64,000 bases of DNA from Pseudidiomarina insulisalsae (GTDB lineage: Bacteria > Pseudomonadota > Gammaproteobacteria > Enterobacterales > Alteromonadaceae). The translations under genes were made by a program, and so were the position numbers. The notes beneath the pieces were generated by a model that made no database searches, was not told the DNA's origin, and was given only the letters and a program-made list of their open reading frames with translations. This document shows positions 51,482 to 54,272 of the stretch, piece by piece (within the stretch, counting starts at the first letter, position 1; every line of letters starts with the position of its first letter). The stretch is taken from NCBI RefSeq assembly GCF_003987065.1, contig NZ_PIPY01000001.1, positions 62,001 to 126,000 of the forward strand. The letters are read 5' to 3'.

Positions 51482-52486
51482 ATGCCCGAATCTCTCATCG
51501 CTTTTGTCGTAATAGGTTTCTTTACTGCTTTACTGACCTTAGTAAGCTTACTGCCACTGTCTGAGCGCCCATTCTGGCTGATCCGCGTATGGGATTTCCC
51601 GCGTCTGCAATTAACTGCGGTCGCGGTTATTTTGCTGGCAGCCAGCGCCCAATGGCTGCCCATGGAACACCCGGCCACCTGGGTACTAATAACACTGCAG
51701 CTGGCTTGTTGTGCCTGGCAGCTCTGGTGGATATTCCCTTACACCCCGCTGGGAGAGCGCTGCGTCCAGCGCTACGTCAGAAAGCGCGACGAAAGCAAAG
51801 TCGAAGAGCACCTGCGCATTATGGTCGTTAATGTTTTTGAGCATAACCGCGACGCGGTCGAGCTCATTCGCATGGTTAACCGCGAGCGCCCCGACATGAT
51901 TGTCGCTGTTGAGGCTGATGACTGGTGGGAAAAGCAGTTCACCGACATTGAGGATGACCTACCGCATGTCGTGCGCGTACCGCAAAACAACCTTTACGGC
52001 ATGATGCTTTACTCAGTATGGCCATTAAAAAATGTCACTGTGGAAAATCTGGTTGAGGACAAGGTACCGTCCATCCACGCAAATATAGAAATGCCGGGCG
52101 GCCGTGTGGTGCGTATCCATTGTGTGCATCCCGCCCCTCCTGCGCCAGCCGAACATGACACCACAAAGCCGCGCGACCGCGAGTTATTAAAAGTCGCCGA
52201 TATGACGCTCAAAGAAAATGGCCCCATTATCGTCACCGGCGACCTTAACGACGTCGCCTGGTCAGGCACCACGCGGCAGTTTCTGCGCACCAGCAAGCTA
52301 CTCGACCCACGCATGGGCCGTGGCCTCTACAATACCTTCCACGCCAAAGTACCTTACCTACGCTGGCCCCTGGATCACCTGTTCCACAGCGAGCACTTCA
52401 TGCTGGTCAAAATGCGCCGCCTCCCCAAATTCGGCTCAGATCACTTCCCCCTTCTCATCGAACTCGCGCTCAAACGCGAAAGCTAG
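51482..52486 (+). CDS. Endonuclease/exonuclease/phosphatase family membrane protein
   Basis: A 334-residue protein with three N-terminal transmembrane helices (to about residue 90) and a C-terminal EEP-fold domain: LRIMVVNVFEHNRDAVELIR, GPIIVTGDLNDVAWSGTT and SDHFPLLIEL hold the metal and catalytic residues (Asp, Asn, His). Such YafD-like proteins are anchored in the inner membrane with the catalytic domain likely outside. Substrate unknown. Divergent from ubiD; a 520-bp repeat-rich gap separates it from rho. Confidence 0.85.
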   Translation: MPESLIAFVVIGFFTALLTLVSLLPLSERPFWLIRVWDFPRLQLTAVAVILLAASAQWLPMEHPATWVLITLQLACCAWQLWWIFPYTPLGERCVQRYVRKRDESKVEEHLRIMVVNVFEHNRDAVELIRMVNRERPDMIVAVEADDWWEKQFTDIEDDLPHVVRVPQNNLYGMMLYSVWPLKNVTVENLVEDKVPSIHANIEMPGGRVVRIHCVHPAPPAPAEHDTTKPRDRELLKVADMTLKENGPIIVTGDLNDVAWSGTTRQFLRTSKLLDPRMGRGLYNTFHAKVPYLRWPLDHLFHSEHFMLVKMRRLPKFGSDHFPLLIELALKRES

Positions 52487-52502
52487 CCTTCGGCTTTTGG
52501 GC

Positions 52503-52604
52503 GAGTTCAGGGTCCACAGGCTTGAGGACGCCGTGAACCCTTCCCTGGGGGCTTGACTGCCGCATCCCTGCGGCAGACACCTCAAGCCTATGGACCCTGA
52601 ACTC
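52503..52604 (+). repeat. Repeat copy A: core with 25-bp complementary arms
   Basis: Left arm 52503-52527 and right arm 52580-52604 are reverse complements with one mismatch; the shared core lies between. The arms begin GAGTTCAGGGTCCA and do not resemble the arms of copies C or D. Confidence 0.9.
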
Positions 52605-52615
52605 ACCTTGCGCCC

Positions 52616-52656
52616 TTCGCTGGGGGCTTGGCTGCCGCATCCCTGCGGCAGACACC
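52616..52656 (+). repeat. Repeat copy B: truncated core
   Basis: Contains CTGGGGGCTTGGCTGCCGC and the hairpin as in copy A, but lacks the GACGCCGTGAA start and a matching left arm. It sits between two 21-bp direct repeats and looks like a partial duplication. Confidence 0.8.
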
Positions 52657-52752
52657 TCAAGTCTTTGAACTCTAACTCACCCTGCGCCCTTCGCTTGAGC
52701 CTTTGACCGTCGCGATGCGTAACGCATCGAAGGCATGGTGGTGATAGTAAGT

Positions 52753-52831
52753 CGATTTGCGAGGGTGTGCGCCCCCAGGGATGCGGCGCCCAAGCCCCCA
52801 GGGATGGGTTCACGGCGTCCCTCGGAAATCG
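52753..52831 (-). repeat. Repeat copy C, opposite orientation, 13-bp arms
   Basis: Arms CGATTTGCGAGGG (52753-52765) and CCCTCGGAAATCG (52819-52831) pair with one mismatch and flank the reversed core (GTGTGCGCC ... GGTTCACGGCGTC). Confidence 0.85.
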
Positions 52832-52887
52832 GGCTGCTAAAAGCAGCGAAAGCCAAGGAGCGGATCGCTCAGGAGGCGCGGTGGTTT

Positions 52888-52981
52888 CGCGGGATTGATT
52901 CCCTAGGGTGTGCGCCGCAGGGATGCGGCGCCCAAGCCCCCAGGGAAGGGTTCACGGCGTCCCTTGGGAATCAATCCCGCG
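52888..52981 (-). repeat. Repeat copy D, opposite orientation, 21-bp arms
   Basis: Arms CGCGGGATTGATTCCC (52888-52903) and its perfect complement (52966-52981) continue inward past one mismatch for four more pairs. The core is nearly identical to copy C, while the arms are unrelated to those of A and C. Confidence 0.9.
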
Positions 52982-53006
52982 GAATCACCGGAGCCGGATG
53001 ACTCGA

Positions 53007-54272
53007 CTAAGACTTCTGGCGCTTCATGGCGTCGAAGAATTCGTCGTTGGTTTTGGTCATTTGGAGTTTGTCGATGAGGAATTCCATGGCTTCGGTTTCG
53101 CCCATTGGGTGGACGATTTTGCGCAGGATCCACATTTTCTGCAGCTCGTCCTGTGAGGTGAGCAGCTCTTCGCGACGGGTGCCGGAACGGTTGAAGTCGA
53201 TGGCCGGGAAGACGCGCTTTTCGGCGATTTTGCGGTTCAGGTGGAGTTCCATGTTACCGGTGCCCTTGAACTCTTCGTAAATGACTTCGTCCATTTTCGA
53301 GCCGGTATCGATAAGTGCTGTGGCGATGATGGTCAAACTGCCACCTTCCTCGACATTACGCGCGGCACCGAAGAAGCGCTTCGGCTTATGTAACGCGTTT
53401 GCGTCAACACCACCGGTCAGAACTTTGCCTGAGCTTGGAATCACTGTGTTGTAAGCGCGTGCCAGACGGGTAATTGAGTCGAGCAAAATAACCACATCTT
53501 TTTTGTGTTCAACCAGACGCTTGGCCTTTTCAATAACCATTTCAGCAACCTGCACGTGACGGCTTGCTGGCTCATCGAACGTTGACGCTACGACTTCGCC
53601 TTTTACCAGGCGGTGCATTTCAGTCACTTCTTCCGGGCGCTCGTCAATTAACAGCACCATCAACACACATTCCGGGTGGTTGGCTGCAATCGACTGGGCA
53701 ATATTCTGCAGCAACAGGGTTTTACCTGCTTTCGGTGGCGCGACAATCAGGCCACGCTGGCCTTTACCAATCGGTGATGCCAGATCCAGAACGCGAGCGG
53801 TGATGTCTTCGGTAGAACCATTACCGCGCTCCATGCGCAGACGTTCGTCGGCATGCAGTGGTGTAAGGTTTTCGAAGAGAATCTTGTTGCGGGAGTTTTC
53901 AGGCTTGTCGAAGTTGACTTCACGAATCTTTAGCAGAGCGAAATAGCGTTCGCCTTCTTTTGGCGGTCGTATTTTGCCGGCTACGGTGTCACCGGTACGC
54001 AGGTTGAACCGACGGATTTGGCTGGGTGAGACGTAGATGTCGTCAGGGCCGGCAAGGTATGAAGAGTCTGCCGAGCGTAAGAAGCCGAAACCGTCCTGCA
54101 AGATTTCCAGTACCCCATCGCCATAAATATCTTCACCGCTTTTTGCGTGGGCTTTGAGGATGGCAAAGATAATATCTTGCTTGCGGGTACGAGCCATGGC
54201 CTCAAGGCCCATGGATTCTGCGAGCTGTACAAGCTCATTTACTGGTTTATTTTTTAATTCTGTCAGATTCAT
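53007..54272 (-). CDS. rho: Transcription termination factor Rho
   Basis: A 421-residue hexameric RNA helicase that ends transcription at unstructured C-rich RNA. N-terminal helical domain [20 protein letters not shown], cold-shock-like RNA-binding domain ([30 protein letters not shown]), Walker [13 protein letters not shown], Walker [17 protein letters not shown] and Q-loop [21 protein letters not shown]. Near-identical length to E. coli Rho. A 224-bp leader separates it from trxA; a long leader is common for rho, which is often autoregulated by attenuation. Confidence 0.98.

Follow-up and report, generated by a model that had tools for sequence, protein, structure and literature searches.

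A dispersed REP-like repeat of Gammaproteobacteria with copy-specific arms probably works as one folded strand

The window, which is the whole 64-kb stretch analysed in this study, contains a convergent gene pair in which a gene of the endonuclease/exonuclease/phosphatase (EEP) family faces rho, and the spacer between them holds three full copies (A, C and D) and one half copy (B) of a repeat (Table 1). Copy A begins 10 nt past the end of the EEP gene, and copy D is placed just downstream of the rho stop. The full element is about 120 nt long and forms a three-way junction, composed of a ~26-bp stem made by two arms and of two hairpins. The folded strand, carrying the ANGGAN (GGA) loops, is designated R and the opposite strand F; R is the minus strand for copy A and the plus strand for copies C and D. 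Copy B, whose arm is identical to the A arm at 22 of 27 aligned positions and differs at 5 of 27, was not matched by the covariance model (R1), which was built on alignment A2, that is, on copies of other species.

Table 1. Genes and repeat copies at the EEP-rho junction (positions within the window)
Feature	Position	Strand	Support or detail
EEP (endonuclease/exonuclease/phosphatase family) gene	51482..52486	+	Pfam PF03372, E 8.6e-32
Copy A, full element	52497..52611	- (folded strand R = -)	covariance model 103.2 bits, E 1.8e-23
Copy A, parts	arms 52580-52607 + 52500-52527; core 52526-52581	-	inverted pair, 28 nt, 93%
Copy B, half copy (a hairpin with a single arm, 52656-52681, and no partner arm)	52606..52681	-	direct-repeat families and sequence
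Copy C, full element, outer stem poorly paired	52725..52849	+	covariance model 81.9 bits, E 3.6e-18
Copy C, best-paired arm parts	52753-52765 + 52819-52831	+	13 bp, 1 mismatch
Copy D, full element	52868..52991	+	covariance model 110.5 bits, E 2.8e-25
Copy D, arms	52879-52908 + 52961-52990	+	inverted pair, 30 nt, 90%
Copy D, hairpin 1 (7-bp stem, hexaloop AGGGAT)	52912..52931	+	sequence and model; stem covaries across 66 copies
Copy D, hairpin 2 (GCC/GGC + CCC/GGG stem, hexaloop AGGGAA, conserved bulge TTCAC)	52936..52958	+	sequence and model
rho (transcription termination factor), convergent to EEP	53007..54272	-	Pfam PF07497, PF07498

Exact copies of the core GACGCCGTGAACCC are found at three places in the window (52527 on the plus strand, 52806 and 52948 on the minus strand), and four matches with up to two mismatches were found against 0.47 expected and a maximum of 2 in 100 shuffles. 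Fold z-scores were -7.3 for the copy D stretch and -9.7 for the copy A stretch. Together with the arm scores given below, these values rule out chance similarity and bear out the earlier note, made from the sequence alone, in which A, C and D were described as copies sharing a core. That note had also described flanks that are complementary within each copy and unrelated between copies. Both observations hold, with 25 nt and one mismatch in A, 13 nt and one mismatch in C, and 30 nt and three mismatches in D, and the match coordinates of the covariance model show that the arms reach past the ends quoted there. The model, run over the 64-kb window at E up to 0.1, found no match beyond copies A, C and D.

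Across the whole genome, the core head was found seven times, exactly or with one mismatch, while the hairpin-2 core was found at six places and the covariance model likewise gave six matches. Five of the six cores possess complementary arms. Scores of left against right arm within a copy were 10, 21, 22, 15, 7 and 23, those between copies were at most 8, and no left arm pairs with the right arm of another copy. The sixth core, the first of two lying 64 bp apart on contig C18, has unpaired arms.

Hairpin 1 was found as an ANGGAN hexaloop with a stem in 162 of 205 copies collected from many genomes, by searches that left this loop unconstrained. Scoring of hairpin 1 in 134 copies from named genomes placed GGA at the apex in 116 of 129 hairpins; the other 13 have a different apex, several of them being mis-parsed hairpins with a GGA loop, and five copies gave no hairpin. 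The loop AAGGAT is present in 14 copies. Hairpin 2 has an ANGGAN loop and a conserved TTCAC bulge next to nearly invariant GCC/GGC pairs, and two of its three inner pairs covary (UA/CG and CG/AU). Note that the invariance of the hairpin-2 loop is partly built in because the search pattern fixed part of that loop, and that of the loops in alignments A1-A3 because only copies whose hairpin 1 is ANGGAN were admitted to them. In a census of hairpin loops the repeats themselves dominate, which makes it largely circular. In many copies of Methylotuvimicrobium buryatense (L197-L216), hairpin 1 is split by a second, nested repeat, which forms two hairpins of its own, their AGGA and ATGGAT loops being on the opposite strand.

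The 205 copies of the arm set (134 from named genomes, 71 from this genome and its relatives) are non-identical and have enough flanking sequence, matches close to contig ends having been dropped. An arm score of at least 12 was reached within the copy in 152 of them (110/134 and 42/71, respectively) and in only 42 of 6112 comparisons between left and right arms of different copies, which extends the complementarity described for the window to copies from many genomes. The 53 copies scoring below 12 include some half copies and others that are decayed.

Covariation was measured on 66 non-redundant copies (A3), thinned by shared 12-letter arm words from 98 named-genome copies with an ANGGAN hairpin 1, arm pairing being no criterion. 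The covariation score was 0.79, compared with 0.206 +/- 0.009 after shuffling and at most 0.19 after sliding, and standard pairs fill 89.6% of cells, compared with 57.1% shuffled and 39-45% slid. Changes on both sides were seen at all 26 arm pairs and at all six hairpin-1 pairs. Alignment A2, from which 11 of the 66 copies had been excluded by hand to leave 55, gave the same outcome (0.80), and so did 26 copies from the same genus (A1, taken from 38 after exclusion of 11 tandem repeats and one half copy), with a score of 0.72 against 0.16. The copies are related through descent, and neither these counts nor the wobble counts below represent independent events.

Arms that pair within a single strand tolerate G·T on that strand, and the same pair reads as A·C on the opposite one. 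Imperfect pairs were therefore counted by strand in three sets that have at most one copy in common. On R, the ratio of G·T to A·C was 123:31 in named genomes, 105:21 in this genome and its relatives, and 99:29 in M. buryatense, so that G·T is three to five times as frequent on R as on F. The ratios became 94:25, 70:16 and 61:27 after removal of the three commonest positions of each set, and copies with more wobble on R than on F outnumbered the reverse by 67:10, 50:4 and 40:4. Scoring skipped copies with an arm score below 10 (13/134, 7/71 and 38/99), and the p-values are too small owing to shared ancestry; the direction agrees in all three sets. The excess appears in every arrangement of neighbouring genes (++ 104:27, -- 45:15, +- 80:12, -+ 21:6), and it is therefore not likely to be caused by read-through transcription from neighbours. 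It is weaker inside long ORFs (25:12) and stands at 52:9 at locus edges. Since G·T is in excess on R whichever way the genes run, one strand, that with the GGA loops, appears to be folded and selected.

The same junction was sought in other species, with the EEP gene as anchor for the orthologous spacer. EEP was found in 19 of 26 same-genus genomes. Element copies occupy the EEP-rho spacer in six of them (G000, G002, G004, G005, G007 and G018), G016 has an apparent deletion remnant fusing one arm from each of two copies, and G014 and G020 have only an ordinary terminator-like palindrome. EEP and rho abut (-4 to 21 bp) in five (G010, G011, G017, G019 and G022), and rho was not reached in the other five (G003, G006, G012, G023 and G024). 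One arm might have pre-existed at an orthologous empty site, as the earlier note had considered; neither is present in the five abutting relatives, where the spacer is only -4 to 21 bp long, and these sites may reflect loss as well as original absence of the element.

Copies at the EEP side of the spacer have 25-27 of 28 positions paired within the copy in four species, compared with 17-21 of 28 when arms are combined across species; the close pair G007 and G018 gave 25-26, and one cross-comparison with G004, for which the aligner found no register, scored 2. At the rho side, 24-27 of 28 positions are paired within the copy in five species. Counted without gaps, G007 shares 44% of the third codon positions of EEP with G000 and 84% with G018. 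A second junction (G000 C12 and G016 C20), with surroundings 79% identical, displays 26 and 27 of 28 pairs within the copies and 21 across them. By eye, one additional A in the left arm of G007, compared with G000, has its counterpart in an additional T on the right, and multi-base changes among same-junction copies are mirrored across both arms. Selection for stem formation by compensatory change, one of two explanations offered in the earlier note, is supported by the double-sided changes at all arm pairs, by these compensated differences at the same gene junction across species and by the strand-specific G·T excess.

Several observations concern single sites. The rho-side copy of G007 and G018 (L063 and L062) differs by six mirrored arm changes and three one-arm-only changes, with pairing judged by eye, and the neighbouring copy by three changes of 56, none of them mirrored; a relic arm in G007 retains the G018-like state. 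Steady compensatory evolution leaves this contrast between adjacent sites unexplained. In G002 and G005 (L059 and L060), the EEP-rho spacer contains several partial tandem copies ending inside hairpin 1 and followed by the only full copy, which suggests repeated slippage or deletion at the hairpin.

Arms are not always private to one copy. Among 99 copies of M. buryatense, several arm types recur at many sites. In two arm groups, into which 62 of the 99 copies were placed (7/40 being skipped in one), pairing is restored in 38 of 41 and 23 of 25 double changes, and single changes give G·T:A·C ratios of 26:12 and 16:2. Tandem arrays in G003 and G005 reuse one arm type. The expectation that ordinary repeats carry the same ends is thus right for expanded subfamilies and fails for the copies of this genome, whose arms are unrelated. 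The shared arms of subfamilies and tandem arrays lead us to infer that copies spread with their arms and diverge later.

These data weigh against the other explanation in the earlier note, according to which a new palindrome is built at each insertion site by template switching or hairpin-templated insertion. Unrelated arms in this genome, together with the mirrored one-base indel and multi-base changes, would fit such a process, and template switching is described in the accessible passages of PMC8794818 as creating and maintaining hairpins. The same arms, however, stand at many subfamily sites and in tandem arrays, the empty sites have neither arm, copies at an orthologous junction alter their two arms in step, and the strand-specific wobble excess is not expected from a replication mechanism. 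We consider this explanation very improbable, and it is hard to keep as the sole cause; the mechanism could act as a helper restoring pairing. Template switching as set out in those passages explains multi-base compensatory change in stems of RNA hairpins, but it is a mutation process rather than an element, and we see in it no reason for a strand preference in imperfect pairs. In view of the mirrored multi-base changes and the one-base indel, it may help to restore pairing.

The element is widely distributed. A strict core pattern was found in 18 of 59 genomes (this genome and its relatives), the reversed pattern in none, and two further genomes (G027 and G039) carry the element according to the model although the strict pattern misses them. 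A scan of named genomes matched at least 119 stretches, and the genera among the matches listed include Stenotrophomonas, Marinobacter, Methylomicrobium, Ectothiorhodospira, Microbulbifer, Saccharospirillum, Shewanella, Moritella, Cellvibrio and others. Copy numbers reach 573 in M. buryatense 5G and 235 in Saccharospirillum salsuginis, followed by 141, 93, 72, 45 and 8 in five further named genomes, with a reversed-pattern control of 0 throughout. With stricter filters and eight candidates scored per genome, the model matched 31 of 398 genomes of the phylum, this one included; all 31 belong to one class, in a set whose class make-up is not given. The earlier note, which supposed repeats of this kind to be frequent among marine gammaproteobacteria, is therefore right on this point but too narrow, as Stenotrophomonas, Methylomicrobium and Ectothiorhodospira carry them too. 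According to crude ORF calls, 25 of 304 copies lie inside ORFs longer than 300 aa. Spread via phages or plasmids was rejected, with no match to the element in viral contigs (viral_contigs) and matches of 83% identity in 2 of 72,556 plasmid records. One of the latter, the conjugative plasmid pDCA of Ancylobacter novellus (L217:1501-1551), has a core copy of 83% identity with a haloalkane dehalogenase gene on one side and an ISAs1 transposase on the other.

Arrangement relative to genes and to other copies was also regular. In Stenotrophomonas maltophilia D457, all 17 pairs of adjacent copies less than 600 bp apart are inverted with R outward, at distances of 238-436 bp, and copies A and C in the window have the same arrangement. 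The pairs (L218-L247) sit within a larger conserved frame, with CCACGG.../...CCGTGG inside and CCCCTCGTGG outside. A T-rich stretch is found on R ~76-112 nt upstream of hairpin 2 in this species. Single copies in D457 display no clear replication-strand bias between chromosome halves (11:10 and 12:5, the terminus being assumed at half). The element follows a stop codon in the F sense in 44 of 47 cases among relatives, 54 of 94 in named genomes and 63 of 95 in G062, on crude ORF calls and with the G062 windows chosen for dense F-strand matches.

This position would suit an element acting through the F strand at the 3' end of the mRNA, as a REP-like mRNA stabiliser or a terminator, and a terminator-like palindrome does lie midway between the copies of several S. 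maltophilia pairs. Wobble nevertheless favours R even in the F-sense group (the ++ arrangement above), and no T-run directly follows the element on F or on R, which rejects a simple terminator; we regard action at the mRNA end as quite unlikely. R is antisense to the nearest upstream gene in 44 of 47 cases in the relatives set, which is odd for a functional RNA and speaks against the reading of the element as a folded strand. Neither a clear promoter-like excess nor a T-run was found around the element for an R transcript.

The GGA loops raise the possibility, a tentative one, that R is transcribed and that the dispersed copies, with two GGA loops each, serve CsrA/RsmA as decoys or landing sites. 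A single CsrA dimer could span the distance between the two loops, as in CsrB/RsmZ RNAs; those RNAs are the products of a single sRNA gene or of a few in each genome. ANGGAN loops and GGA apices of the CsrA/RsmA type prevail in hairpin 1 in the proportions given above, unconstrained by the search, and selection on one strand only agrees with an RNA ligand. CsrA/RsmA is named as the candidate reader because RsmA binds a hairpin with 5'-AAGGAU in the loop, as reported for RsmZ-2 in the available passages of PMC4066749, and this loop corresponds to the AAGGAT of 14 copies. CsrB/RsmZ decoy RNAs likewise possess several GGA-loop hairpins, AAGGAU among them according to the same passages; the element differs from them in being a dispersed repeat, in having no clear promoter and in having further conserved parts. 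CsrA is encoded in all 54 carrier genomes tested, but this co-occurrence is uninformative because CsrA is present in 58 of the 59 genomes (own and relatives) regardless of the element. Against a CsrA decoy stand also the lack of a clear promoter-like excess upstream of R, the mostly antisense position of R among relatives, and the conserved TTCAC bulge and GCC/GGC pairs, which CsrA binding leaves unexplained. A still bolder picture, in which the family consists of class-wide mobile RNA-coding repeats, at up to hundreds per genome, predicted docking RNAs for CsrA/RsmA dimers with a freely evolving clamp, that act as a self-spreading sponge for the regulator, seems doubtful to us.

Alternatively, R might fold as single-stranded DNA and owe its movement to a transposase of the Y1 (RAYT/IS200-like) type, a mechanism that has been proposed for REP elements. 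The element does resemble REPs and REPINs in its strand-specific folding, in its dispersal and in the uniformly inverted pairs of D457, and a Y1 gene is present in 12 of 18 carriers in the relatives set. It is present, however, in 24 of 41 non-carriers as well, and six carriers (G004, G008, G030, G034, G045 and G058) gave no Y1_Tnp match. Of 30 loci fetched for 31 Y1 matches in six carriers, one has the core within 1.5 kb of the Y1 gene, and the Y1 gene of this genome is accompanied by other palindromes. Single copies in D457 lack a clear strand bias. Movement of folded DNA by Y1 is thus unlikely in our judgement, a Y1/RAYT-mobilised REP was rejected on these counts, and no mobilising enzyme was identified for the element. 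Five genomes of the same genus (G000 C15:34880-41098, G003 C3, G005 C6, G012 C11 and G016 C21) have a second csrA ~4-18 kb from a Y1 transposase gene, as if this were a variable or mobile region with an extra CsrA.

REPs, REPINs and BIMEs (GTAG and CGTC types), as described in the accessible passages of PMC3733652, are likewise short dispersed intergenic palindromes, often downstream of genes, in inverted pairs and in up to hundreds of copies, and in this wide sense the element is a REP, being a dispersed intergenic palindrome of which the seven named genomes counted have between 8 and 573 copies. It differs in being a three-way junction of ~120 nt rather than 20-40 bp, in sharing one core across many genera of the class, in having copy-specific arms with compensation, and in displaying no link to a Y1 transposase. 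The narrower definitions exclude it. A GTAG tag occurs in 6 of 66 copies (30 nt searched, 5' of and in hairpin 1), and flanking of RAYT/Y1 genes by the repeat, the other mark of REP (GTAG), was seen at the single locus mentioned. REP (CGTC) is delimited in those passages by a stem of 8-9 bp whose first two positions are A/T, a loop of 4-5 and a CGTC/TGTC tag; here TGTC-like letters precede hairpin 1, and the outer pairs are mostly G-C/C-G. The same source describes CGTC-1 dimers of Halothiobacillus neapolitanus in 41-bp palindromes as REPs inserted into a target palindrome. These dimers likewise have two hairpins in an outer palindrome, and their consensus includes 'attcacg' at the place of TTCACGG in the element, so that, compared via the printed consensus only, they are possibly an earlier sighting of one family member. 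An exact search with part of that consensus gave no match in 287 loci.

Other known classes fit less well. Integron attC sites fold as a single strand and conserve structure above sequence; the element forms dispersed copies, not cassette arrays. The attC end boxes RYYYAAC / GTTRRRY are found in 4 of 66 copies against a shuffle mean of 0.42, a small excess, and their absence from 62 of 66 led us to reject an attC site. MITEs are likewise small, non-coding and dispersed, with inverted repeats, but the inverted repeats differ among the copies of this genome, the same terminal repeats being shared only within the M. buryatense arm groups, and no parent transposase was identified. A known Rfam RNA was rejected, as window positions 52300-53200 gave five weak matches, to microRNA and Ysr224 models, that all fell short of the gathering score, and 18 of the 119 named-genome loci gave only one cobalamin riboswitch. 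A literature search that included the core letters, with thin coverage of subscription papers, returned no name for the family.

Taken together, we favour a gammaproteobacterial dispersed, non-coding, REP-like element of ~120 nt that probably acts as one folded strand, be it RNA or DNA. The arms would serve as a clamp in which pairing matters and the letters do not, drifting via paired changes that template switching possibly aids, and the two-hairpin head would stay fixed because it is read by a putative trans-acting factor. Copies presumably spread together with their arms and come to differ as they age; this would account for the copy-specific arms of this genome.

With hundreds of paralogues per genome and orthologues across species, the family makes the compensatory evolution of a long stem directly measurable, and in the same data set the role of template switching in stem evolution can be measured. 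The covariance model would let annotators mark these repeats. The present data indicate a dispersed intergenic repeat that is selected as one folded strand regardless of neighbouring transcription, a property demonstrated, to our knowledge, for few REP-like families. If CsrA reads the two GGA hairpins, a repeat family would be tied to a global regulator.
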